Shown here: positions 16,705-42,146 of the stretch, piece by piece
How positions within the stretch are numbered: the first letter of the stretch is position 1
How the letters are laid out: every line of letters starts with the position of its first letter
Origin: Brunnivagina elsteri CCALA 953
GTDB lineage: Bacteria > Cyanobacteriota > Cyanobacteriia > Cyanobacteriales > Nostocaceae
Direction: 5' to 3'
Length of the DNA stretch: 49,575 bases
Assembly (NCBI RefSeq): GCF_002289455.1
Contig: NZ_NTFS01000003.1
Location: 1-49,575 of the forward strand
The notes under the pieces: model-generated
Told to the model about the DNA's origin: nothing
The model's database searches: none
The model's input: the letters and a program-made list of their open reading frames with translations, nothing else
Made by a program: the position numbers and the translations under genes

Positions 16705-16727
16705 TATTACTCAGAGATATAGGTGTG

Positions 16728-18641
16728 ATGGAGTTGAGTTTTAAGCAGTGCTTGCGATCGCAACAGTTATTTCCTCTGGAAGTATCGCGAATACTATTTG
16801 CTGGGAGTTTAATTAGCAGTGGGATGTTGAGTCAATTGTGTTTACCGTCAGTTGCACAAACATCTCCGCAACAGTCAGAAATACCGACTTCGAGAATATC
16901 AAGCTCTGGAATATCTGACTTGGAAATATCAATCCCTGACGCAACGTCTCAAGTCTCAACTCCAGCTATAACTGGTGAAATGATTCCTCAAATATATCCA
17001 CCGGAAAGTGATATAAATTCGACATTAGTAGAATTTTCTGGTGGAATTTCTCCCCGGTTTCCAAAGGTATTAAAACCAAAACCCTCCCTTCCCTATATAT
17101 TTTACTTTCCCGAAAAAATGGGGAGGGAAAAAAATGGGGATAAATATTTGATTGCGGCTGATGCGGTTGATAATCTGAATACTGATGTTGATGCTAATAG
17201 CGATCGCAATTCTGATCCAAGTTCTAATCCAAGTTCCGATCCAAGTTCTGATGGGTTAATTGTACTACCTTCAGTGACAGAGCTTTCTGATGTGCAGCCG
17301 AGTGATTGGGCATATCAAGCTTTGAAATCGTTGGTGGAGCGTTATGGGATTCTCTCAGCATCCCCCAAGTTTCGCGGCAACCAAGCAATGACGCGGTATG
17401 AGTTTGCTGCGGCTTTGGCTGCTACTCTGGATAAGGTTGAAGGTTTGCTGGGAAATGCGATCGGTGATGAATATGTACGTCAAGATGCGATTACAGTTCG
17501 TCGGTTGCAGAATGAATATGCATCAGTATTGAAGGAAGTAAGGGAAAGAATTGACACAACTGAATATAAAGCTGCGGAAGTCGAAGCAAATCAATTTTCG
17601 GTGACAACTAAGCTACAAGGACAACAAATTGTTGGATTTACTGGAGGTAGCAGCGCGAGTAATACAGTTGTATCTCGAACACGTCTCAATCTTTTAACTA
17701 GTTTTGATAAAAAAGATTTACTGCTTACGCAGTTAGAATCTGGTAATAATGGTGGCGATGCTATTAGTCAGGAACAACGAGAAAATGTTAATTTATTAGG
17801 CTCAAATGGTGTTTTTGCGAATGCTGGGGGGCTTGATTATACCGATGTTGAATCAAATTTAAAATTACGACGTTTATATTACCAATTTCGCCCTACAGAT
17901 AGTTTCGCGATCGCAGTTGGTGCGAAAATGTCACCACGGGATTTTATCGATAAAAATTCCTATGGAAACAATGAATCTCTAGATTTTAGTTCGGGTGCTT
18001 TTTTGAATAATCCCCTCATTGTTCAAAATCAAATCGATCGCACGGGGGGAGCAGGGGCAGCAATCAACTGGAATCCGCAAAATAGTAAGTTAATTTTACG
18101 TGGACTCTACATTGCAGCTAATGCGAATCAACCCGGTACAAACCCCAATCGAGGGTTATTTGGTGATAGTCATCAAGCTAGTTTGGAAGCTGAATATAAT
18201 CCCAGTAATAAACTAAAATTACGTTTACAATACACTAATGCGGTAGTTAATAATACTGATATTAATGCTTTGGGGATTAATGCAGAATATTCGCTAAATC
18301 GGAATGCGGGAGTATTTGGAAGATTGGGAATTGGTAATTATGCAGGATTTAATACCTCCCTCAACCGCGATTTTAGCACTTATCCTGTAAGTTGGTCAGT
18401 TGGTGTGGGTTTACGCAATGTTGTTGTACCTGGGACATTAGCAGGAATTGCGATCGCACAACCTTTTATTACTGGTGATGTGGGGAATGCAACGCAAACC
18501 AATTTTGAAGCATTTTATAATTTTCAACTCAGCGATAATATCAGTGTTACACCAATATTCTCGGTGGTTACTAATCCTGATAATGACAAGAATAACGGGA
18601 TAATTTGGCAAAGTGCTTTGAGAACGGTATTTTCTTTTTAG
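16728..18641 (+). CDS. SLH-domain outer-membrane porin (iron uptake porin type)
   Basis: The product (~637 residues) has an N-terminal hydrophobic export segment (ILFAGSLISSGMLSQLCLPSVAQ) and a low-complexity Ser/Pro/Asp linker with NPSSDPSSD-type repeats. One SLH module follows at ~187-240 (LSDVQPSDWAYQALKSLVERYGIL, MTRYEFAAALAATLDKVE), then a coiled coil (VRRLQNEYASVLKEVRERIDTTEYKAAEVEANQF). The last ~360 residues are an OprB-like beta-barrel (LKLRLQYTNAVVNNTDI, VTPIFSVVTNPDND, terminal FSF). This is the layout of the major cyanobacterial outer-membrane porins, some of which are tied to iron uptake; substrate cannot be read from sequence. I chose ATG 16728; GTG 16725 overlaps it. It starts 23 bases after gloA and may share its transcript. 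Confidence 0.9.
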   Translation: MELSFKQCLRSQQLFPLEVSRILFAGSLISSGMLSQLCLPSVAQTSPQQSEIPTSRISSSGISDLEISIPDATSQVSTPAITGEMIPQIYPPESDINSTLVEFSGGISPRFPKVLKPKPSLPYIFYFPEKMGREKNGDKYLIAADAVDNLNTDVDANSDRNSDPSSNPSSDPSSDGLIVLPSVTELSDVQPSDWAYQALKSLVERYGILSASPKFRGNQAMTRYEFAAALAATLDKVEGLLGNAIGDEYVRQDAITVRRLQNEYASVLKEVRERIDTTEYKAAEVEANQFSVTTKLQGQQIVGFTGGSSASNTVVSRTRLNLLTSFDKKDLLLTQLESGNNGGDAISQEQRENVNLLGSNGVFANAGGLDYTDVESNLKLRRLYYQFRPTDSFAIAVGAKMSPRDFIDKNSYGNNESLDFSSGAFLNNPLIVQNQIDRTGGAGAAINWNPQNSKLILRGLYIAANANQPGTNPNRGLFGDSHQASLEAEYNPSNKLKLRLQYTNAVVNNTDINALGINAEYSLNRNAGVFGRLGIGNYAGFNTSLNRDFSTYPVSWSVGVGLRNVVVPGTLAGIAIAQPFITGDVGNATQTNFEAFYNFQLSDNISVTPIFSVVTNPDNDKNNGIIWQSALRTVFSF

Positions 18642-24031: not shown

Positions 24032-25009
24032 ATGCAATCAAAAATAAATTTAACTATCGCCATTTGTACATTTAACGGTGCTTACAGATTACCTGCTTTA
24101 ATTGAAAAATTACTTTACTTAACGCAACATCCAATTCAGCTTGCTAATCAAGAAAATCTCAACTGGGAAATTATCATCGTAGATAACAACAGTAGTGATA
24201 ACACAGCCCAAATTATTGATAGCTACCAACAACAATTCGCCGAAAATCAACTAAACTACATATTTGAATCTCGACAGGGAGTAGCATATGCTCGTCGTCG
24301 TGCAATTCAAGAAGCCAAAGGTGAAATAGTTGGCTTTCTTGATGATGATAATTTACCAAAAGATAATTGGATTGCAGCAGCATATCAATTCTTTCAACAA
24401 CATCCACAAGCTGCTGCCTGCGGTAGCAGCATCCAGGGAATATATGAAATCGCACCTCCAGCCAATTTTGAACGCATTGCCAGCTTAATGGCAATTATTA
24501 ACCGTGGAGAAAAAGCCTTTATTACAAAGCGCATAATGCCAGCAGGGGCAGGAATCGCAATCTGTAAGCAAGCATGGGTTGATTGCGTTCCCAAAACACC
24601 AAAAATACTTGGTAGAACGGCAAACTCAATTGCTTCTAAAGGAGAAGAAATTGAAGCTTTATTGCACATGCAAGCAGGTGGATGGGAAATATGGCACAAT
24701 CCCCAAATGCAGCTATCACACCATATACCCCGCGATCGCTTCCAACCAGAATATCTAACTCAGTTATGCCGTTCGGTTGGTTTAAGTCGTTTCCAAACTC
24801 GAACAATAATCCTTGCTAATTGGCAAAAACCACCTGCTGCGATCGCTTACTTTCTCAACGACTTGCGTAAAATCTTTAAACATATAATCAAATATCGGGA
24901 TTCTGTCAAAAATGACCTTGTAACTCGCTGCGAACTAGAACTTTTAATAGCTTGCCTAATTAGTCCCTTCTACCACGCAAAATTACATCTCCACAAAAGC
25001 TTTAGATAA
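24032..25009 (+). CDS. GT2 glycosyltransferase, HpsE type
   Basis: A family 2 glycosyltransferase (325 residues). The N-terminal GT-A fold shows TIAICTFNGAYRLPALIEKLL, the nucleotide-binding IIVDNNSSDNTAQII, QGVAYARRRAIQEAKGEIVGFLDDDNLP (the metal-binding DDD) and the acceptor-side GEEIEALLHMQAGGWEIWHNPQMQLSHHIPRDR. The C-terminal ~60 residues are helical and membrane-associating. It closely resembles the two proteins at 36551 and 37555, the latter inside the hps locus, which places it in the HpsE group of hormogonium polysaccharide enzymes. It lies more than 3 kb from hpsA, between a methyltransferase and htpG, so it is a dispersed paralogue. Donor and acceptor sugars are unknown. Confidence 0.85.
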   Translation: MQSKINLTIAICTFNGAYRLPALIEKLLYLTQHPIQLANQENLNWEIIIVDNNSSDNTAQIIDSYQQQFAENQLNYIFESRQGVAYARRRAIQEAKGEIVGFLDDDNLPKDNWIAAAYQFFQQHPQAAACGSSIQGIYEIAPPANFERIASLMAIINRGEKAFITKRIMPAGAGIAICKQAWVDCVPKTPKILGRTANSIASKGEEIEALLHMQAGGWEIWHNPQMQLSHHIPRDRFQPEYLTQLCRSVGLSRFQTRTIILANWQKPPAAIAYFLNDLRKIFKHIIKYRDSVKNDLVTRCELELLIACLISPFYHAKLHLHKSFR

Positions 25010-27925: not shown

Positions 27926-28540
27926 AGGGGTGGGGTCTCCCCACCCTCACTCACCCATGATAGTGTTGATAAATAAGTATACGATTTGCAGATTTTATTT
28001 TCTGGAAGCGCCTAAAACTGCGATCGCAATCCCGAATCAAAGTCGAATCTAACAGTCGCGATCGCAATCCCGAATGATAACGAATTAAGCGAACTTGATA
28101 TAAATTATTTTTTTTAGAAATTGATATATTTCCAGCAGCAAGTGGGTAGTATAAGTCTACTCTCTGGATTTATTGCACATTCTTCATCAAGTTCCCTTAT
28201 AGAAACACTATCTTTTACAAAGTTAAAACAAAGTTATGCCATTATTATTCTCCGTAGGCTATAAAATAATTAACTCAGGTTAATCAATTCAACTAATATC
28301 TCCGTTTTCCGGAAGAATACTCACCAGGAAACACAAAAAATAACTAAAAAAAATAAAAGTGATATAACTGTCTTGAATCTGTTTGAAATTGTTTTCATCG
28401 GGATTCAATATTGGCTTTGAAAGTCTGGTTTTACGACCAGATATGGATATGTCTGTCTTGTTTTTCTATAGGCGATATTCTAGATACAAGAAAATTTTTT
28501 CATAAAAATACATTTGTAAATATTCTACAGGAAAAGGGCT
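27926..28540 (+). other. long upstream region of hpsA
   Basis: About 600 bases likely to hold the hpsA promoter. I see a hairpin GGGTGGGG/CCCCACCC (27928-27946) and an 18-bp direct repeat containing HIP1, GCGATCGCAATCCCGAAT, at 28020-28037 and 28058-28075. The 5' leader is AT-rich and AGGAAA (28529-28534) lies just before the ATG. Hormogonium genes are controlled by the SigJ cascade, but I cannot place a SigJ promoter with confidence. Confidence 0.5.
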
Positions 28541-31500
28541 ATGTCTCGAAATAACGAGTTAGTCAAAGTTATTAGAAACTTCTACCAAAAACTTCGTTCT
28601 TACTCTCCCACTACACTTCAAGAGCAGCGTTTATGGTTGCTGCGTACTTTCCTAGTAAATAAAAGAAAACCTGAATGGTCGAATGCAGGTTTTTTATTAC
28701 CAACTGTAGCGATGGTTTCGCTAGTGGTTGTGTTGTTGACTATCGCCATATTATTTAGGTCGTTTGAACGGTCTAAAAATGCGAGCAATGTGCGGGTTGA
28801 CCAAGTAATTCTAAATGCGACCGCACCTGCTATTGACCGAGTAAAAGCTAAATTAAATGCTCTATCTGAAGACCCTACATTGCCCCGTGGAACACCATCA
28901 GATGGAGCTTTATATGATGCTTTAAAGAAGGATAAATATAGGCTTGGTGATGAAAGTCGTTTGAAATTGGCTTATGACTTTAATGGTCAAGCAGGTATTC
29001 AAGAAGGAGGCAATAGCATAGAAGAGAACGAAGCATCAAAGACTGCCTGGAAATTTGCGATCGACACAGATAATAACGGTCTTAAAGATACATACACTTT
29101 ATATGGGGTTTACTTTAGATCGCCAAGTAGAGATTCAAATACAGGAGAATTTGCTCGTAAAAGAAATCCATTGGAAGCAAGAACTCCGCCAATGGATAAC
29201 GATGCAACAAACCAAGTATGTAGGAATGCAGCAGGTTTTTCGACCTTAGTTGGTAATTCAAGTTGGTATAAACTTCAAAATGGAAATCTTGGTAAGAGCT
29301 TTTTTACGTATGCTGTTAACGTACCGATTACTGATGCCGCTTATAACCAAATCCCAGCAGCAGAAAAAAGCCAATACGAAAAATATAAAGGAAACAAAGG
29401 CTTCGCAGCATTAGAATTTCAGCAAGATAGAAGTAGAATTCCTTTGCCTAACAATGCCGTATGGTTCGAGAATGACTTAGAAATTTCATCCGGTACTGAC
29501 TTAGCAATCAATGGTAGAGTCCATACCAACGGTAATTTTCTTGTAGGTAGTGGTAGTGCTGATAATACATTTAGACAGGTGAGCAGTAAATCGTCTTGCT
29601 TCTTCAACCAAGAAAATGGGTTAATGACTGTTGGTGGTAATGTGGGAACGGGAAGCGTAAGTACTAACACTGACCAATCGAATCAAGGGGTTGTCCATTT
29701 ATATCAAGGATTTAATCAAAATGTTGATCTCACAAAGAAAATTAACAGCAGTAATAAATCGACTGACAAAGGTGGTGGTTCCCTAATTGGATTTAACGAT
29801 AATGCATACAGCCAGCGCATAGCCAGAATGAAGACAAGGGCTGAAGAGCTATGTACTACTTGTTTTTCTGCTACTACTGGTGCTGCTTTGGAAACTGCGG
29901 TAAATGCGAATACAAACTACCCACAAGAAATTAAGCAGAATGTCTCAGAAAAAGTAGCCGCTACGGACGACAACAAAACTGCTACTGATATTCTTAAGGA
30001 TGAAATAGAAATTTACCTGCGGAATCGCACCAGAAGAGTACCTTTTGCTGAAGTTGGTCAAGGTGCCACCAAAGCAGATGCAGAGGCTGGGTTCGCTCAG
30101 GCAGCTTTCGATGTGAAATTAGACCCTCCCGCAGATTGGAGAGAGCCTATCACTAGCGGTAAGTTAACTGGTACTTCTGGCACTGATGCAGTCTCGGTGA
30201 ACACATCTAATTTATCCGCAACATTCCCCGATTTACAGAAACAAGAAGGTATTCAAACTGAAATAGGCGATCGCGTTTTTGTTGGTAACAACCTACCCGC
30301 TCGCTGGTTAAAGGGTACTAACTACGTGGGTGCGGAAGAAAATCAACTAATTGCCAGTGTCAACTGGAATCGACCCACAACTGGAGCAAAGCAAAGATGG
30401 CGTAACTCCCAAATACAACCACTTGCAGACTTAGGTATTACCGACAGAAATGGATTCTGGGAAGAAAAAGCCTACGAGCAACCGAGAAATGCCTTGGATA
30501 ATGTCGGTGGTGTGAGAATTATCACTGGTGCAGGTATTTATCGCGACGATGATTGGGACCCAACTACAGGTATTCCTCCTACTAAAGGTACTCCTAATTA
30601 TAGCCGTACTGCTCCAGTTGCACCTACTCCACCAGCTTTGCTGACAAGCCGCAACCTTGCCCACAGCCCAAATGCTGTAGATACGGCTGCCAATATACCC
30701 AAATTTAACAGTTTGGATAATATATATGTATGGTCTGATACAATGCGGATGTCATCAGCGAACCCAGCAAATACAGGTACGGGCGATTTATTAATGCGGG
30801 CAACTGCCGTTTACCACTACAAAATTAACTCTACCGCAGGTGTAGCTCAAGAACCACTAGCTTGTGTAAGTAGCTATCACGACCCCAGTTACAGAATTCT
30901 CAACGATACTAATGGTAATGGTGTTTGGGATAGTGGAGAAACCTATACAGACTCTAGAAGCAATAGAAGCGATATTACCGGCTTACCGGCTTTACCTACC
31001 GGAGTATTACCAGCAAACACTGCAACAACTGGTGGTAAATCTAACAATGGTGTTGTTTACACATACCCAGGAAGAACTACCTTCAACGCAACAAACAGAG
31101 CTTTATTAGAAAGACAAGCAAGACTAGTATATCCAAATGGCAGAGTAGTCAATCAACCTCTGCGAGATGCTTTGTCAAAATTTAGTGGAACTACTATACC
31201 TACTACGTTACAGGCTTCCGATTATTCGGCAATTGACACCGCATTATGTGCAGTTTCAATTCTGAATAATCCAACAAGTAATATTGTTGCTGCTGGCACT
31301 GCAAATATGCCGCCTCATGGAGCAATTCGCGAAGCTTCTTTCTTAGATGGTAGAGAAGCCAAGCAGGTTGCCAGATTAGGTCTTAACTTTGCGGCTTTGG
31401 GCAATCAAAATGACTTAGACTTAGAACAGCGCCAACCACTCGAGATTCGGACGACGGACATCGATTTAGGACAATTAGCCAACACTGTAGTTAGCACAAC

Positions 31501-33685
31501 AGAGTACCTATTACCAAACAGTGGGATTATCTACGCAAGTCGCGACGATGCAATGCGCGATGCCAGCGACAATTCAGCGCAATCAGAAATATTAAGTCCT
31601 ACAGACTTTAAATTAGACCCAACTCGTCGCCCCAATGGGGTCCGCTTAATTAACGGTGGAACATTGGCAAGAAGACCAGCGACTAATAATAACGCTTATA
31701 CCCCTCAAGAAAAAGGTTTAATTCTAGCAACCAATCTACCAGCATATATTAGAGGAGCATTCAACCTCCACCGCACAAGTACAACTGGCACAACAGAAAT
31801 CGAGGAATTTACAGAAACCACAGCAACAACAGATTTTTATGGACGTAGCACTCCCAATACAAGCTTTGCTTGCCGTGGGGGAAGAACGGGTTGTCCCGCG
31901 ACAGGTGGTGATTATTGGCGACCAGCAACGCTTATTGCTGACTCGATGACACTGCTATCTGGAAGTTTCTTAGATGGAACACGCAGTGAAGGCGATTTTG
32001 ATATTAACAATAATACTGGCGTTCCCGTACCCGATTTAAATCTGGGAGCAACTTCTGGAAATGCAATAATCCCCGTGAATGGAACCACCCTCGATCCAAT
32101 TACCAGAAGTCGTTTGCAAAATGGCTTCCTAGAAAATGGTTTTGTTACTAACACAAACTGGTGGGGTACTCTTGGTGTTCCCAGAAACACAAACAATACC
32201 CCTACGGGTACAGAACAATTGGGTTCCTATGCATTGAATGGTGTTACACCGATTCAACGACGAGCAAATGGCGTACCTCTTTATGTAATGGAGATGTGCC
32301 GTAAAGAAGATGTTAGCGACTGTCTACCAAATGACTGGGTTGTTGGATTTGATATCAATGGAAATGGCATTTTAGATAATGCCGCAGAAAGGAATGTTAA
32401 AGCTAATGAAATCGGTATAGTAGTGACTACTATTGGTGGTAGTATCAGTGGTGATTGGAATACCACATTTGTTGGAACACCTCTACCTCTACAACCTGCA
32501 AAAAGTATCAGACAAAGACTTGGGGCTGGGGATACGGCAAATTTAGCTTTGACTCAAGGAGACCAACGCTTTCCTCGTAGAGTCGCATTTGCTCGCGATA
32601 ATAACAACCAACTAGTAGTTGCTAGCCTTACCAGTCCTTACCAACCAATAGGTGTCGGTTGTCCAGTACGTAGCACTGCTTACACGACTCCGGCTGTTGC
32701 GGCTGAATACCAAACAAATGGGTGTAGCTATGCGACAAGTCCAGCCGCAGCTACTAATTACGGTGTTACAGGTAATAACGGACTATGGTTTAGAACTGTA
32801 AACGGCGTTAATCCCAGTGACATTGCACAAGCAACCTATAACAATAACCAATCTCTGTTTTACTACCCACCTGCTGATCTTGACATCAATGGTGATGGCA
32901 CAATACAACCGACTGAAGTAGGTGCTATAGATATCAACCGTGATGGCACAATACAACCTACTGAAGAAAGAACTGGACAACCAATCCTAGTACCAGTGAC
33001 TCAAGTCAATGATGCAAATAGTTTACCTCCTGGTGGTTTGAGAACCGATGGTGCGGCTCAAAATCAGTTTAGAGATAATTGGTTAAATGCAGCAAATGGC
33101 AATACAACATATAATGCAACCTTTGTAGTTGGAAACAGTCCCAGCAGACCAGCAGAAGTATCCGCAGGTTTGCAAAACTTTGTCCGCTTCTCAGAATCTT
33201 GGAACGGTATTAATGCCCGAATCAGTGGCAGTTTCATCCAAATGCAAAGGAGTAAATTTGCAACTGCACCCCTGTCAACAGTTTTGTCGGACAGAGTTGC
33301 AGCAACAGCAACAAACGCGAGCGGTATTAACGATAACCGTAGTATTTTTGACTATCCTCTCGATACATACCCAATAGGAAACTCTAATGGTTTATTGCCA
33401 TTCTACTGGGCACCAACTAGAACCTGGGGTTTTGACGTAGGTTTACTCTCAGAACAACCTGACTTGTTTGCTCAAAGATTTACCCAACCCCAAACAGGTC
33501 GTCCCAGCGAGTTTTTTAGAGAAGTTGGTCGTGACGATCTTTGGGTTCAATCTTTACTTTGTGCTGCTGTTGCAAGTGATAAGAAGGGCAACCCAGGTGC
33601 AACTTATACAAACGAAGCAGTTCCATCTGGAGATGGATATCGTCCGAATAATTGCCCAACTGCCATACCATCCGATCCCTCTTAA
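28541..33685 (+). CDS. hpsA: hormogonium polysaccharide biosynthesis protein HpsA
   Basis: HpsA is the first protein of the hps locus needed for hormogonium polysaccharide and gliding. The 1714-residue product has a basic cytoplasmic N-terminus (1-49), then G50|FLLPTVAMVSLVVVLLTIAILF, a prepilin-like G|F junction and 22-residue hydrophobic helix as in PilX minor pilins (Thr at mature position 5 instead of Glu). The remaining ~1640 residues should be extracellular, Asn/Thr/Gly-rich, with cysteine pairs (LCTTCF, CRGGRTGC, MCRKEDVSDC). EF-hand-like loops occur at about 175 (DTDNNGLKD), 789 (DTNGNGVWDSGE), 1271 (DINGNGILD), 1448 (DINGDGTIQPTE) and 1464 (DINRDGTIQPTE). The hydrophobic helix plus pilin neighbours support a pilus-tip or secretion role; the mechanism is inferred. 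Confidence 0.88.
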   Translation: MSRNNELVKVIRNFYQKLRSYSPTTLQEQRLWLLRTFLVNKRKPEWSNAGFLLPTVAMVSLVVVLLTIAILFRSFERSKNASNVRVDQVILNATAPAIDRVKAKLNALSEDPTLPRGTPSDGALYDALKKDKYRLGDESRLKLAYDFNGQAGIQEGGNSIEENEASKTAWKFAIDTDNNGLKDTYTLYGVYFRSPSRDSNTGEFARKRNPLEARTPPMDNDATNQVCRNAAGFSTLVGNSSWYKLQNGNLGKSFFTYAVNVPITDAAYNQIPAAEKSQYEKYKGNKGFAALEFQQDRSRIPLPNNAVWFENDLEISSGTDLAINGRVHTNGNFLVGSGSADNTFRQVSSKSSCFFNQENGLMTVGGNVGTGSVSTNTDQSNQGVVHLYQGFNQNVDLTKKINSSNKSTDKGGGSLIGFNDNAYSQRIARMKTRAEELCTTCFSATTGAALETAVNANTNYPQEIKQNVSEKVAATDDNKTATDILKDEIEIYLRNRTRRVPFAEVGQGATKADAEAGFAQAAFDVKLDPPADWREPITSGKLTGTSGTDAVSVNTSNLSATFPDLQKQEGIQTEIGDRVFVGNNLPARWLKGTNYVGAEENQLIASVNWNRPTTGAKQRWRNSQIQPLADLGITDRNGFWEEKAYEQPRNALDNVGGVRIITGAGIYRDDDWDPTTGIPPTKGTPNYSRTAPVAPTPPALLTSRNLAHSPNAVDTAANIPKFNSLDNIYVWSDTMRMSSANPANTGTGDLLMRATAVYHYKINSTAGVAQEPLACVSSYHDPSYRILNDTNGNGVWDSGETYTDSRSNRSDITGLPALPTGVLPANTATTGGKSNNGVVYTYPGRTTFNATNRALLERQARLVYPNGRVVNQPLRDALSKFSGTTIPTTLQASDYSAIDTALCAVSILNNPTSNIVAAGTANMPPHGAIREASFLDGREAKQVARLGLNFAALGNQNDLDLEQRQPLEIRTTDIDLGQLANTVVSTTEYLLPNSGIIYASRDDAMRDASDNSAQSEILSPTDFKLDPTRRPNGVRLINGGTLARRPATNNNAYTPQEKGLILATNLPAYIRGAFNLHRTSTTGTTEIEEFTETTATTDFYGRSTPNTSFACRGGRTGCPATGGDYWRPATLIADSMTLLSGSFLDGTRSEGDFDINNNTGVPVPDLNLGATSGNAIIPVNGTTLDPITRSRLQNGFLENGFVTNTNWWGTLGVPRNTNNTPTGTEQLGSYALNGVTPIQRRANGVPLYVMEMCRKEDVSDCLPNDWVVGFDINGNGILDNAAERNVKANEIGIVVTTIGGSISGDWNTTFVGTPLPLQPAKSIRQRLGAGDTANLALTQGDQRFPRRVAFARDNNNQLVVASLTSPYQPIGVGCPVRSTAYTTPAVAAEYQTNGCSYATSPAAATNYGVTGNNGLWFRTVNGVNPSDIAQATYNNNQSLFYYPPADLDINGDGTIQPTEVGAIDINRDGTIQPTEERTGQPILVPVTQVNDANSLPPGGLRTDGAAQNQFRDNWLNAANGNTTYNATFVVGNSPSRPAEVSAGLQNFVRFSESWNGINARISGSFIQMQRSKFATAPLSTVLSDRVAATATNASGINDNRSIFDYPLDTYPIGNSNGLLPFYWAPTRTWGFDVGLLSEQPDLFAQRFTQPQTGRPSEFFREVGRDDLWVQSLLCAAVASDKKGNPGATYTNEAVPSGDGYRPNNCPTAIPSDPS

Positions 33686-33702
33686 TAACATGTGAGCTGA
33701 AC

Positions 33703-33738
33703 TTTTATACCCTTTCTTTGCAAATAAAGGGTATAAAA
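33703..33738 (+). promoter_or_regulatory. 13-bp perfect hairpin between hpsA and hpsB
   Basis: TTTTATACCCTTT (33703-33715) pairs exactly with AAAGGGTATAAAA (33726-33738) around a 10-base loop, 17 bases after the hpsA stop and 41 before hpsB. No U-run follows on the + strand beyond AAAGCTTTTC, so it may be a weak terminator, an RNA-processing site or a 3' stabiliser that sets different levels of hpsA and the pseudopilins. Confidence 0.65.
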
Positions 33739-33779
33739 AGCTTTTCAAAGTTTGTAGTGACATTACTGGATAAATAACT

Positions 33780-34490
33780 ATGATGATGACTAAAAAATCA
33801 GCTAGCCAGAAAAAAATAAATTTAAGCCAATTTAGAGGTACGGTAAAGCACCATAAACAATCCCAACAAGACGGATTCACAATTATTGAAAGCTTGATGG
33901 CAATTATTGTGGTTACTATTTTGATGATTGCGATCGCACCTGCGATCGCTCTATCAGTGGCAAACCGTGTTCAAGCTAGACGTATAGAATTTGGAACCCA
34001 AGCAGCGAGGGCTTATGTTGATGGTGTTAGAAGTCAAGTTATTGCCGCTCCCTTAGATACAGCAAGCATGACACCAAGCGCTCCGACATCGGCAACAAGC
34101 CTTAATTGTTCGGCAAATTCCTATTGCACCAGTACAGCCACATCCACCACACCGACAAATTTGTACTGTATTGATGGAAATGCCGATGGTAGCTGCACAA
34201 ATACGCAACCTAGAGATATGATTATCCAGGCTTTTCGCTTTAATGGCAATAATACAACTGCAACCACTGGATACTCTTTAGGTGTCAGAATTTACAGAGC
34301 AGATGCTTTTTCAGATGCGACTGCACTAACATCTAACCCAATACAATCACCCGTTGGGATAGGCAGTCGCAAGGCTCCTTTAGTAATAATGACCACGGAA
34401 ATTAATGATGCGATACCTAAATACGGAGACTTCTGCGATCGTACTAATGCAGGTTTGAGTGCAACTGATGCAAATAGAGGATGCAATTAG
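33780..34490 (+). CDS. hpsB: hormogonium polysaccharide secretion pseudopilin HpsB
   Basis: A 236-residue type IV pilin-like protein. The leader ends at G32|F33 (QQDG|FTIIESLMAIIVVTILMIAIAPAIAL), with Glu at mature position 5 (E37), so it should be cut by the prepilin peptidase PilD. After the helix the soluble domain has several cysteines (NCSANSYC, YCIDGNADGSC, DFCDRTN, RGCN). The ESLMAI start and the position next to PilW- and FimT-like genes fit a PilV-type minor pilin. It begins with three successive ATG codons; the first is used here. It shares an operon with hpsA and hpsC. Confidence 0.85.
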   Translation: MMMTKKSASQKKINLSQFRGTVKHHKQSQQDGFTIIESLMAIIVVTILMIAIAPAIALSVANRVQARRIEFGTQAARAYVDGVRSQVIAAPLDTASMTPSAPTSATSLNCSANSYCTSTATSTTPTNLYCIDGNADGSCTNTQPRDMIIQAFRFNGNNTTATTGYSLGVRIYRADAFSDATALTSNPIQSPVGIGSRKAPLVIMTTEINDAIPKYGDFCDRTNAGLSATDANRGCN

Positions 34491-34553
34491 ATTCTATAAA
34501 TTTCAAAAACCAATTATTCCAACATAAATCTAATAGTAAAGGAACTTTAAAAT

Positions 34554-35546
34554 ATGGGGAGTGTACTTAAATTTTTCTTGAAAATCCACCTTAAAGGTTT
34601 TAGAAAAAAAACTACCACCAATGGATTTACACTGATTGAACTATTAGTAGCAATGATTTTAGCTGTATTAGTCATAACGCCACTACTAGGATTTATGGTA
34701 GACATTCTCCAAACCGATCGCAAAGAAGGGGTAAAAGCGACTACTGAACAAGAAATGCAGACAGCATACGATTTTATTGCTCGCGATTTACAGCAAGCTC
34801 TTTATATTTACGATAGCGATGGAGTTACAAGGGACAATAGCGCCACAGCAACTTTATCGGGCATAAGAAACCAGATTCCACCAGTAAGAGCTGCTACTGG
34901 CTGTAATAACGTCAACACCTGTAAACCTATAGTAGTTTTTTGGAAGCGAGAGTTTTTACCTGAAAGTGCTGGTGTAAGCTCGACTACAGACACAAATAAA
35001 AATGATGGTTTTGCATATTCTTTAGTTGCATACTACCTGATTACGGAGCCTAGCACTACTTGGTCTCCTTCTGCACGGATTGGTAGATTTCAAATTCGAG
35101 GCTTAGTAAATATTTCAAACTCCAATGCAGTAGGACAAGGTAGCGATGTTGGGTTTAATCCACCACCACTCAGTTCTACAATTGCAGGTGCAAACCTAAA
35201 ACAAAAGATGAACCAATGGGTAGCTGCTACTGGTGCTTATACCCAACGTATTGCCACTTTAGTTGATTATGTTCATACTCCACCTACTGGTGTGACTACC
35301 CCTGAGAACTCATTCCAAGCTTGCGAAAATCCAAATCCTCGTGCGATCGGTAATATTACAAGTGGTTTCTACGCTTGTGTTGACGCAGACCAAGTAGCAG
35401 CTCAAATCTTCTTGCGGGGAAGTGCATATACTCGTTTAAATGATAGCAACACAATTGCATATGAACCTAGTAACCCAAGCAATACTTCATATTTTCCAAT
35501 AGCAAGCGGCAGAATCCAAGGAAGAGGATTCTTATTTACAAAATAA
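34554..35546 (+). CDS. hpsC: hormogonium polysaccharide secretion pseudopilin HpsC
   Basis: A 330-residue pilin-like protein with cleavage site G24|F25 (TTNG|FTLIELLVAMILAVLVITPLLGF) and E29 at mature position 5. The following TEQEMQTAYDFIARDLQQALYIYD matches the helix-to-domain junction of PilW-like minor pilins. The soluble domain carries cysteine pairs (GCNNVNTCK, ACENP...YACVDAD). It is 63 bases after hpsB with AAGGAAC as a possible ribosome binding site. It probably assembles with HpsB and HpsD in the inner membrane to prime a pilus-like structure; this is inferred from the PilVWX/FimU paradigm. Confidence 0.86.
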   Translation: MGSVLKFFLKIHLKGFRKKTTTNGFTLIELLVAMILAVLVITPLLGFMVDILQTDRKEGVKATTEQEMQTAYDFIARDLQQALYIYDSDGVTRDNSATATLSGIRNQIPPVRAATGCNNVNTCKPIVVFWKREFLPESAGVSSTTDTNKNDGFAYSLVAYYLITEPSTTWSPSARIGRFQIRGLVNISNSNAVGQGSDVGFNPPPLSSTIAGANLKQKMNQWVAATGAYTQRIATLVDYVHTPPTGVTTPENSFQACENPNPRAIGNITSGFYACVDADQVAAQIFLRGSAYTRLNDSNTIAYEPSNPSNTSYFPIASGRIQGRGFLFTK

Positions 35547-35600
35547 CTTTTACGACAAAAATTAAAAGCATAAATCAAAACGAAAATAAAAAACACCAAC

Positions 35601-36284
35601 ATGTATAAAAAGTTTAATTTATTAATGCTTAAATACAAAAATAATACTTTTGTTCCAAAAGAAATTAATCCAATAACCCAGAATAAAACAAAATATCAAT
35701 TACTTAATCAAGGAGGTTTCACGCTGATAGAGATGCTTGTGGTTGTGATAATCATCGGTATTTTGTCAGGTATTGCTGCTCCAACTTGGCTTGCCTTCAC
35801 CAATAGACAGCGAATAAATAAAGTCAATGATGTTGTTTTATCAACATTACAAGAAGCTCAAAGAGCAGCCAAAAAAACTAAGATTAATCAAAGTCTTTGG
35901 TTCCGTAAGCAAGGTAACGATATAGAATATGCTATTGTCAGTGAGAATGTAACGAAAGAAGAAGATATTAGTATCTGGAAATCTGTAGGAGGAGAAATAG
36001 GAGTTAATTCTAAGCAGTTTGTATTAGCCACAAATATTACAAGTGATAATACAGCTACTATCTCCACAGCATCAAATTCAATCACAACAGCCAAAAAGTA
36101 TATTACCTTTGATTACATGGGCATTTTGTCTAAACCCAGCTTTACAGAAACAGCAGGTTTAAAATTAGTTGTAGCTGTACCTCAGACCCCAAATTCGACA
36201 GTGGCTGGTAACACGAAACGATGTGTAATTGTCCAAACTATTTTGGGTGGAATAAGGACAGAGAAGGATAATAATTGCAACTAG
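35601..36284 (+). CDS. hpsD: GspH/FimT-type pseudopilin HpsD
   Basis: A 227-residue pseudopilin with cleavage site G39|F40 (NQGG|FTLIEMLVVVIIIGILSGIAAPTWLAF) and E44 at mature position 5. The leader is long (39 residues). The soluble part begins as in GspH/FimT (QRINKVNDVVLSTLQEAQRAAKKTK) and ends with KRCVIVQTILGGIRTEKDNNCN, where two cysteines may form a loop. The same C-terminal motif occurs in the pseudopilin at 39671. It is 54 bases after hpsC and followed by a terminator, so it closes the pilin part of the operon. Confidence 0.84.
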   Translation: MYKKFNLLMLKYKNNTFVPKEINPITQNKTKYQLLNQGGFTLIEMLVVVIIIGILSGIAAPTWLAFTNRQRINKVNDVVLSTLQEAQRAAKKTKINQSLWFRKQGNDIEYAIVSENVTKEEDISIWKSVGGEIGVNSKQFVLATNITSDNTATISTASNSITTAKKYITFDYMGILSKPSFTETAGLKLVVAVPQTPNSTVAGNTKRCVIVQTILGGIRTEKDNNCN

Positions 36285-36550: not shown

Positions 36551-37558
36551 ATGAATAAATATGTGGATTTCACAATCGCTATCCCAACATACAATGGCGA
36601 AACTCGTTTACCTGAGCTATTGCAGCGTCTACAAAACCAATTAGAAGTTGATAATATCTCCTGGGAAATTATCGTTGTAGATAACAACAGCACAGATAAC
36701 ACCGCAATAGTTGTCAAAGAGTTTAAAGCCAATTGGAAATATCCCTTTAAATTAGAATATTACCTAGAAACAAAACAAGGAGCTGCCTATGCCCGTAAAA
36801 GAGCAGTTGCAGAAGCCAAAGGTAAGCTAATTGGTTTTCTTGATGACGATAACTATCCAGAATTGAATTGGGTTGCAGCAGCTTACAACTTTGCCCAAAA
36901 ATTTCCCCATGCTGGTGCTTATGGTAGTCAAATTCATGCAAATTGGGAAGTAGAACCACCTGCAAATTTTCAGAGAATTGCACCATTCCTCGCAATTACA
37001 GAAAGAGGTGATATTCCTTTAATTTACCAAAAAAATAGCAAATTTTTACCTCCTTCGGCTGGGCTTGTAATCAGAAAAGAAGCTTGGCTAGAATGCGTAC
37101 CAGATGATTGTATTTTAAATGGGAGAGCTAATGGAAACATGTTGACAGGTGAAGATACTGAATTGCTATGTTATATCCAAAATTCTAAATGGGAAATTTG
37201 GTATAACCCTGAGATGGAAATTTATCATCAAATACCCAGTTGGCGATTAAAAAAAGAATATTTGCTTCCATTTTTTCGAGGTATTGGATTAAGTCGCTAT
37301 GTAACTAGAATGACAGGAGTAAATCAGTGGATGATACCAATAATGTCAATTCTTTATATGATTAATGACATCAAAAAAATATTACTTCAAATAATCAAAT
37401 ATAGATTTAGCATAAATGATTTGGTATCGGCTTGCGAAATGCAACTTTATTTTAGTAGCTTAATCAGTCCTTTTTACTTATGGAGGAACGGATATTTTAG
37501 TAATAAAAATAAATCAGATAATATACAGCAAAATAGCCATCAATCTTTAAATACATGA
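36551..37558 (+). CDS. hpsE: hormogonium polysaccharide glycosyltransferase HpsE
   Basis: A 335-residue GT2 enzyme predicted to add sugars to the hormogonium polysaccharide. GT-A motifs in order: FTIAIPTYNGETRLPELLQRL, IIVVDNNSTDNTAIV, KQGAAYARKRAVAEAKGKLIGFLDDDNYP (metal-binding DDD), GEDTELLCYIQNSKWEIWYNPEMEIYHQIPSWRL (likely catalytic-loop region), then a hydrophobic, membrane-associating C-terminus (WMIPIMSILYMINDIKKILLQIIKY). It has two close relatives, one overlapping downstream and one at 24032. Its last four bases (ATGA) overlap the next gene, so the two are translationally coupled. Donor and acceptor are unknown. Confidence 0.87.
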   Translation: MNKYVDFTIAIPTYNGETRLPELLQRLQNQLEVDNISWEIIVVDNNSTDNTAIVVKEFKANWKYPFKLEYYLETKQGAAYARKRAVAEAKGKLIGFLDDDNYPELNWVAAAYNFAQKFPHAGAYGSQIHANWEVEPPANFQRIAPFLAITERGDIPLIYQKNSKFLPPSAGLVIRKEAWLECVPDDCILNGRANGNMLTGEDTELLCYIQNSKWEIWYNPEMEIYHQIPSWRLKKEYLLPFFRGIGLSRYVTRMTGVNQWMIPIMSILYMINDIKKILLQIIKYRFSINDLVSACEMQLYFSSLISPFYLWRNGYFSNKNKSDNIQQNSHQSLNT

Positions 37559-38562
37559 ATAAATTAATATCCAAAGAAATTGATATTACTGTGGCGATTC
37601 CTACATTTAATGGAGAAAAACGCCTGCCGATTATTTTAGAAATGATTTTAAATCAAACAGGAGTTGATAATTTAAATTGGGAGATTCTAGTAATAGATAA
37701 TAATAGTAGTGATAATACGTATGAGGTCATTCAAAAATATCAAAAAGATGATTTTTATCAGTTACCATTAAGATATATTCTCGAACCTCAGCAAGGTGCA
37801 GCTTTTGCAAGAATCACTGCTGTCAAAGAAGCAAAAGGAAAATTAGTTGCTTTTTTAGATGACGATAATTTGCCTGCTGCTGACTGGCTAATTTCAGCTT
37901 ATGAATTTGGCAAACTATATCCACAAGCTGGTGCTTGGAGTGGTCAAATTCATGGTAATTATGAAGTGGAACCACCAGAAGAATTTGAAAAAATTCAAGC
38001 TTTTCTTGCTATTCGAGAACATGGGGATAAGCCATTTTTATTTGATGCAAATAATCTTCGATTACCACCAGGTGCTGCATTAGTTATTAGGAAACAAGCA
38101 TGGTATGAAAATGTCCCATCTCAACCGATTTTAACAGGAAAATTGCCAGGAATACTGGTGCAAGGGGATGACTACGAACCACTACTTTATATTCATTTCG
38201 GTGGTTGGCAAATTTGGTATAACCCAGAAATGCATACTTATCATCAAATTCCAAAATGGCGATTTGAAGTAGAATATCTCAAATCTTTGGCTCGTGGTTG
38301 CGGTTTATGTATTTGTCAATTGCGTCTGATAAATACTGCCAAATGGCAAAAACCACTGATTATGGCTAAGACATTCTTGGGTAATTTACGTCGTTTAATT
38401 CAATATTCTTTTAAACATAGAAGTGAATTAGAAAGTAATCTTATCACAAAATTTGAGATTGAGTTTTACCGGGGTAGTATGATGAGTCCAATATTGAGTT
38501 TAAACTATTATATTACCAGTTTTTTAGGTAAACTTTTCGATAAACAAGGTTTACAAAGCTAA
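37555..38562 (+). CDS. second HpsE-type GT2 glycosyltransferase
   Basis: A 335-residue paralogue of the preceding gene, overlapping it by ATGA. Motifs match: VAIPTFNGEKRLPIILEMIL, ILVIDNNSSDNTYEVI, QQGAAFARITAVKEAKGKLVAFLDDDNLP, GDDYEPLLYIHFGGWQIWYNPEMHTYHQIPKWRF. Identical length and strong motif identity point to an ancient tandem duplication, while the many differences suggest they transfer different sugars or act at different acceptors. It probably corresponds to one of the later hps glycosyltransferase genes (hpsF or hpsG), but I cannot assign the letter. Confidence 0.85.
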   Translation: MNKLISKEIDITVAIPTFNGEKRLPIILEMILNQTGVDNLNWEILVIDNNSSDNTYEVIQKYQKDDFYQLPLRYILEPQQGAAFARITAVKEAKGKLVAFLDDDNLPAADWLISAYEFGKLYPQAGAWSGQIHGNYEVEPPEEFEKIQAFLAIREHGDKPFLFDANNLRLPPGAALVIRKQAWYENVPSQPILTGKLPGILVQGDDYEPLLYIHFGGWQIWYNPEMHTYHQIPKWRFEVEYLKSLARGCGLCICQLRLINTAKWQKPLIMAKTFLGNLRRLIQYSFKHRSELESNLITKFEIEFYRGSMMSPILSLNYYITSFLGKLFDKQGLQS

Positions 38563-38604
38563 ATTATCTATTTGAGTTTACTTAAGGAAATTATTTCGCC
38601 GAAA

Positions 38605-39570
38605 ATGACAAAAATTTCTGTGGTAGTACCAGCTTTTAATGCTGAGAAAACTATTTTACGTACCGTCAAATCTGTTTTAAATCAAACTTTTAATGATTTT
38701 GAATTAATAATAATTGATGATGGTTCTCAAGATTGTACTTCTAGTATTGTCTCTCAACTAAATGACTCCCGCATTCAATTATTTTCATATCAAAATTCAG
38801 GTGCAAATGTCAGTCGGAACCGTGGGATATTTCATGCCAGTGGAGAGTATATTACTTTCTTAGATGCAGATGATATGTGGACTAATGATAAATTAATCAG
38901 TCAGATTGAAGCTTTGCAAGCGAATTCTCAAGCCAGTGTTGCATACAGTTGGACTGATTATATTGATGCAAATGATAATTTTGTCGTTTCTGGAACCCAT
39001 GCTACTAAAAATGGGGATGTTTACAATGATTTGTTGATAAGTAATTTTTTAGAAAACGGTTCTAATCCCTTAATACGCAAAGAAGCTTTAATTGAGCTTG
39101 GGGGTTTTGATGAGTCTTTAAAAGCTGCTCAAGATTGGGATATGTGGCTAAGATTAGCTGATAAGTATGAGTTTGTTGCTGTCCCAAAAGTACAAATTTT
39201 CTATAGAATTAGTGAAGATTCAACTTCTTCTAATTTAGATAGACAAGAAAAAGCATGTTTGACAGTTATGAATCGTGCTTACCAAGCTAGACAGTCGATT
39301 AAGAAAGAAGCGTTAAATGCTAGTTTTGCTAACTTGTATAAGTATTTGACTTGTCGAGCTTTGCTAATGCCTTATAGTCGAAAAAAAGCTTTCACCGCAG
39401 CTAAATTTCTACATAAGTATTTTATCTATGATAAAGACAGATTGCAGCGACTTAAATTTGTGCTTACACTTTGGCTCAAAATTATCATAATTGTACTTTT
39501 GCCCAAAGAGGTTTACAATAAGTTATTTACTTCTTTAAAAGTCCAAAAAAATCAGTTAAAAGCTGTTTAA
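38605..39570 (+). CDS. GT2 family glycosyltransferase
   Basis: A 321-residue GT2 enzyme of a different subgroup from its neighbours: ISVVVPAFNAEKTILRTVKSVLNQTFNDFELIIIDDGSQDCTSSIV, GANVSRNRGIFHASGEYITFLDADDMWTNDKL (DAD) and WLRLADKYEFVAVPKVQIFYRI. The C-terminus is basic with one hydrophobic stretch (FVLTLWLKIIIIVLLP). I chose ATG 38605; the longer frame from a TTG at 38572 adds 11 residues. It starts 42 bases after the previous gene. It is likely part of the same polysaccharide pathway and may be the third hps glycosyltransferase. Confidence 0.85.
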   Translation: MTKISVVVPAFNAEKTILRTVKSVLNQTFNDFELIIIDDGSQDCTSSIVSQLNDSRIQLFSYQNSGANVSRNRGIFHASGEYITFLDADDMWTNDKLISQIEALQANSQASVAYSWTDYIDANDNFVVSGTHATKNGDVYNDLLISNFLENGSNPLIRKEALIELGGFDESLKAAQDWDMWLRLADKYEFVAVPKVQIFYRISEDSTSSNLDRQEKACLTVMNRAYQARQSIKKEALNASFANLYKYLTCRALLMPYSRKKAFTAAKFLHKYFIYDKDRLQRLKFVLTLWLKIIIIVLLPKEVYNKLFTSLKVQKNQLKAV

Positions 39571-39670: not shown

Positions 39671-40231
39671 ATGTTGAAAAAAATTAATAAAAACTCTTCT
39701 AGTAGCGGCTTCACGTTAATAGAAACTTTGGTCGTGGTTTTAATCATTGGAATTTTAGCCGCGATCGCATCACCTTCTTGGCTGCAATTTATCAACACTC
39801 GTCGTCTCAATACAGCCCAAGACCAAGCATATCAAGCAATACGTCAAGCACAAAGTCAGGCTAAGAAAGCAAAAGTTACCTGGCAAACAAGTTTCCGCAA
39901 ACAAAATAATCTCGTTCAATGGGCTGTTCATCCAGCAAATCAACCAGTCGCTGACGGATTATGGAATACTCTCGACTCAAATATTGATATTGATATCGGG
40001 GAAACAACTTTGAGAAAAAATCAAAGTGATGTTTACCAGGTTCAATTTGATTATCAAGGTAATGTCATTCCCCAACTGGGAAGAATTACTCTAAAAAATT
40101 TTAGCAACTCGACACAAGCAGCGAGTACAGGCATTCCCAAACGCTGTGTTATTGTCTCCACTATCTTAGGTGCAATGCGAACCGCTAAAGACCGCAATCA
40201 ACCCGATGAAAATGGTAAGTATTGCTATTAA
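39671..40231 (+). CDS. second GspH/FimT-type pseudopilin of the hps locus
   Basis: A 186-residue pseudopilin with cleavage site G13|F14 (SSSG|FTLIETLVVVLIIGILAAIASPSWLQF) and E18 at mature position 5. The soluble part (RRLNTAQDQAYQAIRQAQSQAKKAKVTWQTSFRKQNNLVQWAVHP) and the C-terminal KRCVIVSTILGAMRTAKDRN...C parallel HpsD, including the R-C-V-I-V-x-T-I-L-G motif and a final cysteine. It is shorter, with a much shorter leader. It stands after three glycosyltransferases rather than with hpsBCD. It may swap with HpsD in the same complex or serve the main type IV pilus. The function is inferred from homology only. Confidence 0.85.
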   Translation: MLKKINKNSSSSGFTLIETLVVVLIIGILAAIASPSWLQFINTRRLNTAQDQAYQAIRQAQSQAKKAKVTWQTSFRKQNNLVQWAVHPANQPVADGLWNTLDSNIDIDIGETTLRKNQSDVYQVQFDYQGNVIPQLGRITLKNFSNSTQAASTGIPKRCVIVSTILGAMRTAKDRNQPDENGKYCY

Positions 40232-41309: not shown

Positions 41310-42146
41310 ATGAATAACAGTTTTGCAGCAGCGACAGCTTCCCGCACTCTCAAGATAGTCGGAATTATCTTGATTTTGTCCTTTCTCATCGATTTTGTAC
41401 TTTTGCTATTTCCCTTTAAACCTACGGATAAAGGATGGCAGATTAACTTGGCAACTGCATTAGTGGACAGAGGAATTGTACCCCTTGTTGGTTTGGGAAT
41501 GCTATTTGCCGGATATTGGGCAGATAGTTTCGATAGCGAGGGATTTGGCGGTTTTGATTTAAGAATGCCTGCGTTAGTCATATCAAGCCTTTTAGGTTTG
41601 ATGTTTTTGCTAATTTTCCCCTTGCATTTAAATAATATCCGTCAAGCCAGCAATCAAAGCATTGAGCAAATCAGTAAGCAAGCGGAACAAGCCGAAACAC
41701 AACTCGATAGCCAATTGTCCCAAGTAAAAGCTCAACTTGGAAACGAACAAATCAAAGCTGAACTTGAAAAACAAAAGACTCAAGTTAAGGCTCAATTTAC
41801 AGAGCTGCTTAAGGATGAGCAAAAATACAAGCAAGCGCTAGAAAATCCTAACCTACCAGCGCAGCAGAAGGAATTACTCAAGAAATTTAAGGCTAATCCC
41901 GAAGAACTTGATAAATTTATTGCTCAACAAAGCAATCCTGAACAATTAGCAGAGCAACAAAAGCGTCAAATCCGCGAAAAAAAGGAAGAAGCTGAGAAAC
42001 AAGCAAAGGATGGTGCTTGGAAGTCTGGGTTGCGGATTGGTATTAGTAGTTTGTTACTGTCGATTGGTTACATTATCATTGGCTGGACTGGTTTAAGAAG
42101 CATGGGTGTAGGACAAGGTACTACACGCAAGGTTGCTGCACGCTAA
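41310..42146 (+). CDS. HpsJ-like membrane protein
   Basis: A 278-residue membrane protein. Three hydrophobic segments occur in the first ~110 residues (IVGIILILSFLIDFVLLLFPF; LVDRGIVPLVGLGMLFAGYWAD; LVISSLLGLMFLLIFPLHL). A long charged coiled-coil follows (~115-235, many KAQL/EEAEKQ heptads), then a fourth segment (LRIGISSLLLSIGYIIIGWTGL). This layout, with DRGIVPLVGLGML, matches proteins annotated as HpsJ family, linked to hormogonium polysaccharide and motility. Assignment is by recalled pattern. Its position about 7.6 kb after hpsA supports it. It could instead be a general envelope protein, since relatives occur in non-gliding cyanobacteria. Confidence 0.7.
   Translation: MNNSFAAATASRTLKIVGIILILSFLIDFVLLLFPFKPTDKGWQINLATALVDRGIVPLVGLGMLFAGYWADSFDSEGFGGFDLRMPALVISSLLGLMFLLIFPLHLNNIRQASNQSIEQISKQAEQAETQLDSQLSQVKAQLGNEQIKAELEKQKTQVKAQFTELLKDEQKYKQALENPNLPAQQKELLKKFKANPEELDKFIAQQSNPEQLAEQQKRQIREKKEEAEKQAKDGAWKSGLRIGISSLLLSIGYIIIGWTGLRSMGVGQGTTRKVAAR

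Follow-up and report, generated by a model that had tools for sequence, protein, structure and literature searches.

HpsA as a candidate giant PilX/GspK-class minor pilin at the head of the hps cluster of Brunnivagina elsteri

What does a very large protein do at the head of a row of pilin genes? The question is raised by the hps cluster, which holds the genes for the slime on which filaments of this kind glide. HpsB, HpsC, HpsD and HpsH have been published as pseudopilins, and HpsA is described as a protein of unknown function or as a hypothetical membrane protein. The locus was analysed in Brunnivagina elsteri CCALA 953, in a stretch of 49,575 nucleotides of contig NZ_NTFS01000003.1 (hereafter, the window) whose best named match in the scan is a Calothrix bin, with 76% identity in the best segment. 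The answer that we consider probable is that HpsA belongs to the PilX/GspK class as a minor pilin of giant size, which primes a type IV pilus together with HpsB-D and HpsH and acts as its tip adhesin, with polysaccharide as the favoured ligand. An earlier note on this DNA had placed hpsA-D at 28541-36284, and these coordinates proved exact when the reading frames were checked. The features are as follows (a slash marks the proposed cleavage site).

28541..33685, + strand: hpsA, 1714 aa (NCBIfam NF038301, 1698 bits, over cut-off)
28688..28693, + strand: codons of HpsA Gly50-Phe51, the proposed prepilin-peptidase cleavage junction (from junction conservation)
28691..28867, + strand: HpsA residues 51-109, the hydrophobic helix of the N-terminus with its amphipathic extension (predicted helix)
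33780..34490, + strand: hpsB, PilV-like minor pilin, G32/FTIIE (NF038303, 225.7 bits, over cut-off)
34554..35546, + strand: hpsC, PilW/GspJ-like minor pilin, G24/FTLIE (NF038304, 359.5 bits, over cut-off)
35601..36284, + strand: hpsD, FimT/GspH-like minor pilin, G39/FTLIE (TIGR02532, over cut-off)
36551..39570, + strand: three glycosyltransferase genes, the polysaccharide part of the cluster (two hpsE-like and one further family-2 type)
39671..40231, + strand: hpsH, a further FimT/GspH-like pilin, G13/FTLIE (the fifth pilin, outside the coordinates of the earlier note)
41310..42146, + strand: hpsJ (NF050014, 380.8 bits)

The order on the + strand is thus hpsA-hpsB-hpsC-hpsD, the three glycosyltransferase genes, hpsH, a TIGR04282-type gene, and hpsJ. 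The two hpsE-like genes after hpsD match NF038302 with 494.8 and 447.3 bits. A third hpsE-like gene (24032-25009, 416.9 bits) lies upstream of htpG, away from these two.

HpsA had been read as carrying a prepilin-like junction and a hydrophobic helix without Glu5, and the sequence agrees on every point. The junction is SNAG50/FLLPTVAMVSLVVVLLTIAILFRS, G50/FLLPT being followed by a long hydrophobic stretch, and mature position 5 is occupied by Thr. In 80 HpsA frames from 79 named loci, G-F-x-x-P-T is present 78 times; the two exceptions are L056, a fragment with its start missing, and L095, which reads GFALSTT. All 78 frames that carry the junction have Thr at mature position 5. Alignment of 33 HpsA relatives shows that G50, F51, L53, P54, and T55 are invariant, as are eight cysteines (C353, C775, C903, C1111, C1253, C1261, C1674, and C1705), and the latter would fit a protein lying outside the cytoplasm. 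GspK and PilX also have no Glu5 and are placed on top of their minor-pilin complexes, and the Myxococcus PilX, which likewise has none, carries PilY1 (PMC5207764, PMC7541494). In the literature, a GspK-type first subunit is recognised by a missing Glu5, a larger size, a hydrophobic residue at position 5, and a gene at the 3′ end of its set. HpsA resembles PilX and GspK in its Gly-Phe junction, its hydrophobic helix, the lack of Glu5, and in being the largest of a four-pilin set. It differs in its sheer length of 1714 residues and in its weak direct PilX_N score. Three further features count against the PilX/GspK reading: the Thr at position 5, where a hydrophobic residue would be the GspK-type sign; the length of the leader, 50 residues; and the place of hpsA, which opens its set instead of closing it, although the 3′ position is a published hint and not a strict definition.

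Any similarity between HpsA and PilX_N runs through a bridge, a cyanobacterial PilX-like family of about 500 residues (L142-L173), the direct match to the curated model being weak. This family occurs in 36 of the 292 genomes of the phylum, five of them within the window's own family, Nostocaceae, and the same search found no such protein in the B. elsteri genome. Its junctions are of the G/F[AV][LMI]P type (GFALP, GFVLP, GFVMP) and resemble that of HpsA. When profiles are compared with profiles, the N-terminus of HpsA matches the PilX-like family with an E-value of 1.1e-8; the values for HpsB, HpsC, and HpsD are 0.006, 0.15, and 0.004, respectively, and reversed control profiles give no match. 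Run over the 1,597 frames of the named loci with a threshold of E < 1e-3, the PilX-like profile recovers 80 of the 81 frames of HpsA, with a median E of 2.4e-7; the only other frame to pass (L090, 90-677) is itself PilX-like. Of 25 families with at least ten members, six, HpsA among them, pass a filter for hydrophobicity near the N-terminus. The PilX-like profile gives HpsA a probability of 94%, and the five other families with a hydrophobic N-terminus reach at most 6.3%. As far as such profiles tell, the N-terminus of HpsA matches that of PilX-like proteins, unlike those of HpsB, HpsC, HpsD, or other membrane proteins. Direct scans with curated models are much fainter. On 80 single HpsA N-termini, Pfam PilX_N gives six weak matches (best E 0.0011) and is outranked by families that match the hydrophobic stretch (UstYa in 43, Flp1_like in 24, PTR2 in 15). 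Pfam finds no domain in the whole HpsA of the window, and PilX_N has no match in the B. elsteri genome even at E 10; in 22 HpsA relatives, weak matches are seen to PilX_N (two) and DUF4900 (one). The bridging family itself is only partly covered by these models: in the genome search with PilX_N, one member stands at the Pfam cut-off and another just under it, PilX_N (E up to 1) is found in 3 of 20 members scanned singly, and GspK matches one of three proteins tested (E 0.0026). Its body is unlike that of HpsA, with DUF7305 present in 17 of the 20.

Gene order tells a similar story. Within the 71 named frames that have at least 3.5 kb of downstream sequence, hpsA is followed by three Glu5 pilins in 60 cases, by four in seven, and by two in four; frames under 300 bits or 3,500 bases, such as the N-terminal piece of L056, are left out of this count. 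Among the more distant loci L041-L055, a pilin triple follows the HpsA relative in 14 of 15, L052 being the one without; this case, like the genome G304 below with its pilins but no hpsA, counts against the main reading. Three genomes (L036-L038) show the reverse arrangement, with an HpsA relative of 844-853 residues placed last, after three Glu5 pilins. These proteins have blocks colinear with those of HpsA and match the HpsA model (E 7e-19 to 6.5e-21). Two points complicate the picture. Their N-terminal profile has no direct match to that of HpsA (probability 0.6%), although it matches the PilX-like profile (80%), and of the nine accompanying pilins two match none of the V, W, and H models, the others giving weak matches. 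This order equals the published one of the Synechocystis operon pilA9, pilA10, pilA11, slr2018, in which slr2018 is listed as PilA12 and described as pilin-like. The L036-L038 proteins may accordingly be slr2018 orthologues. The large gene comes last in that operon, whereas hpsA comes first. An HpsA relative of 608 residues (L040, 6257-8083), from a distant genome of the same phylum, has no adjoining pilin triple; it keeps the shared HpsA blocks in a much shorter chain. The HpsA model also matches Deinobacterium chartae, a control genome, below cut-off, and the shared blocks may therefore reach beyond the cyanobacteria. One weak match to the model (L039, genome G133) did not reappear in a phmmer search with HpsA, and the later counts leave it out.

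Tandem cassettes are seen in three genomes (L176, L178, and L179), where a PilX-like gene and three Glu5 pilins lie directly upstream of hpsA and its own pilins. The first set of L176 encodes PilX-like, PilV-like, ComGD/GspH-like, and HpsC/GspJ-like proteins, and the second HpsA, HpsB, HpsC, and a ComGD/GspH-like protein. The PilX-like frame of L179 has only 213 residues, and hpsC is split over two frames in L178. L177 has a PilX-like gene ahead of hpsA, although the three upstream pilins run in the other direction. Since the PilX-like protein and HpsA lead parallel pilin sets, HpsA occupies the X slot, and it exceeds in size the V-, W-, and U/T-type pilins of its set. The bridging family thus shares with HpsA the N-terminal profile, the junction type, and the lead of a cassette. 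When hpsA is doubled, the pilins are doubled along with it: each copy has its own pilins in L182, and also in L180 and L181, where the hpsA frames are broken. N-terminal profiles, gene order, and tandem cassettes all speak for hpsABCD as a minor-pilin operon of the PilX-PilV-PilW-FimT kind. L176, L178, and L179 (and L175 and L177) keep the second set, led by a PilX-like gene, beside hps; the window does not have it. hpsA has been lost in two ways: through an apparent deletion that joins htpG to hpsB in L174 (10737-11800), and by falling into pieces in L175 (2476-4846), where the PilX-like set is whole.

The FTIIE/FTLIE leaders noted for HpsB, HpsC, and HpsD are present, with Glu5 in place in all three. 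Their scores against the TIGR02532 prepilin model (18.4, 19.5, and 32.2 bits, respectively) pass the cut-off of 16.3. Outside the Hps models, HpsB is closest to PilV (TIGR02523, E 5e-6), HpsC to TIGR02599, PRK10557, ComGF, and GspJ (the last two weakly), and HpsD, which no Hps-specific NCBIfam model names, to PRK10506 (7e-11), GspG (1e-9), and GspH (6e-8). All of these matches stay below the cut-offs of the models concerned, so the one-to-one names PilV, PilW, and FimT are likely rather than firm. Among PDB sequences, HpsD finds solved type IV pilins from E 3e-6, and for HpsB two pilins come up weakly (E 0.15 and 0.55).

Beyond the helix, no known domain was matched in HpsA by Pfam or PDB searches. 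AlphaFold2 models of residues 41-1165 (62 sequences; mean pLDDT 78.8, pTM 0.78) and 880-1714 (65 sequences; mean pLDDT 75.6, pTM 0.76) were obtained, the former with a 55-residue helix (residues 55-109, local pLDDT about 54-84) followed by strands. A PDB fold search with the two models returned nothing significant (best E 0.60 and 0.45) and listed no pilin, VIA-align against the PDB stayed below a Z of 5 (best 4.1 and 3.0), and PDB sequence searches with HpsA profiles and compact relatives produced nothing credible. As the models are long and multidomain, these fold searches leave room for a pilin fold. The alginate epimerase AlgG headed the hits for the C-terminal half (E 0.45); this is not significant and the match was not used.

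What the outer part of HpsA binds is where the main explanation has its strongest competitor. HpsA could be a PilX-type cap whose outer part does not bind polysaccharide at all, but gates the secretin or acts as a stop there, or else adheres to surfaces, other cells, or DNA. By a published proposal, GspK halts the pseudopilus at the secretin through its bulk, and modular pilins are described as carrying varied ligand modules (PMC8179133). One such case is Streptococcus sanguinis PilB/PilC, in which a pilin module is joined to a large extra ligand module as we suggest for HpsA, although PilB keeps its Glu5 and is only about 50 kDa (PMC8179133). The Synechocystis pilA9-slr2019 operon, whose order resembles that of L036-L038, is reported to be required for flocculation. 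Set against these points, polysaccharide is favoured as the ligand by the gene neighbourhood alone, and we hold the non-polysaccharide cap to be a serious possibility, though not the one to be expected. Because this reading overlaps with the main explanation, the likelihoods that we attach to the various readings do not add up to one.

The second question is which machine these pilins serve. Papers speak of HpsB, HpsC, HpsD, and HpsH as pseudopilins, NCBIfam labels HpsB and HpsC as pseudopilins of secretion, and released polysaccharide is reported to be lost in pilB or pilQ mutants; hpsA-D and hpsH could thus encode a type II secretion-like pseudopilus that exports the hormogonium polysaccharide apart from the motility pilus. 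A type II secretion system would have its own secretin besides that of the pilus, and the B. elsteri genome (99.98% complete) holds a single secretin, in a search in which six control genomes scored over the cut-off. The inventory of pilins points the same way. Five Glu5 pilin signatures are found in the genome, those of HpsB, HpsC, HpsD, and HpsH and one PilA-like, and the signature search, which sees neither pilins without Glu5 nor very divergent ones, detected no further Glu5 minor-pilin set that could be left for the pilus. Across 30 genomes of the family, a signature is present in 29 and HpsA in 28, G051 having neither. The pattern of 23 of these 29 is three or four signatures no more than 10 kb from hpsA, with exactly one at another place in the genome, this solitary pilin being identified (as PilA-like) in B. 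elsteri only. The six off-pattern genomes have two hps sets each (G048 and G307), hpsA in pieces with two nearby signatures that belong to a PilX-like set (G302), pilins without hpsA (G304, where, judged by eye, an htpG-like gene begins and then passes into a shortened hpsB), or two signatures elsewhere (G306 and G310; the extra one of G306 is weak and lies in a 3,817-aa frame). With one secretin, one PilA-like Glu5 pilin besides the hps ones, and 23 of 29 genomes alike, it is probably the motility pilus that the hps pilins prime, and they are probably its only minor-pilin set in this family, which makes a separate pseudopilus unlikely. There remains the view of HpsA as a membrane-anchored periplasmic protein of the usual sort, serving to make or export polysaccharide, merely co-transcribed with the pilins and with an incidental GFVLP junction, which would suit its NCBIfam label (biosynthesis protein), the term hypothetical membrane protein used in a paper, and the lack of a direct Pfam pilin match, and which is made very improbable by the conserved junction, the PilX-like N-terminal profile with its controls, the X slot in the tandem cassettes, and the doubling of the pilins along with hpsA.

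We thus return to HpsA as a PilX/GspK-class pilin. It would be made with a long basic leader and cut after Gly50 by the prepilin peptidase. Without the Glu5 that other pilins carry, it would be expected only as the first and topmost subunit. Together with HpsB (PilV-like), HpsC (PilW-like), HpsD, and probably HpsH (FimT/GspH-like), it would form the priming complex of an ordinary type IV pilus, here the hormogonium pilus; this is the simplest reading, given that the search turned up no second set of Glu5 minor pilins. The 1,600-odd residues past the helix would then ride at the pilus tip, most likely as an adhesin, and the hormogonium polysaccharide made by the neighbouring genes would be the favoured ligand, a guess from gene neighbourhood. 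The earlier suggestion of a tip adhesin or secretin-facing component that grips the polysaccharide fits this anatomy and stands as a suggestion. Published findings are consistent with hps pilins priming the pilus, without proving it: hpsA-D depend on sigJ, and to a lesser degree on sigF (PMC6495340), and mutants in pilB and ebsA lose both pilus extension and polysaccharide release (PMC11407516).

More tentatively, HpsA might unite the PilX cap and the PilY1 tip adhesin in one chain, the hps pilins being the sole priming complex in the family and the pilus pulling on the filament's own slime through HpsA. One operon would then encode both the hook and the track that it grips. Where a relative has two whole cassettes, each headed by a different X protein, one pilus machine could be fitted with different tips. 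HpsA is like PilY1 in its large size and its proposed role as a tip adhesin, and differs in that PilY1 is not a pilin. The search for PilY1 gave no match in B. elsteri or in the 292 genomes, nor did any control genome score over the cut-off, so its absence cannot be read from this result.

The proposal of HpsA as a PilX/GspK-class pilin appears to be new; no statement of it was found in the open-access literature, a search that did not extend to the primary hps papers. A 2025 review finds it challenging to decide which minor pilins of cyanobacteria are generally conserved and which make up a putative tip complex, in its case for DNA uptake (PMC12288463). If HpsA does cap the complex, filamentous cyanobacteria would have a named tip set for their gliding pilus, with a first subunit much larger than the minor pilins described in the literature covered. 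The label pseudopilin should then change for HpsB-D and HpsH, and the known connection of slime with pilus could be tested on a single protein.

Some minor observations concern the surroundings of the operon. The product of a gene at 13544-15244 combines a right-handed beta-helix (DUF1565) with S-layer homology domains, and the gene is adjoined by an OprB-type porin gene (16725-18641). Two motifs recur ahead of hpsA in the 63 non-redundant upstream regions of relatives: TGATATAACT in 21, and GGGTACTATA in 14, the best shuffled 10-mer reaching five. The upstream region in the window has TGATATAACT once and the near form TGGGTAGTATAA once, with motif sites at 28143-28154 and 28360-28369. The two motifs may belong to the hpsA promoter.
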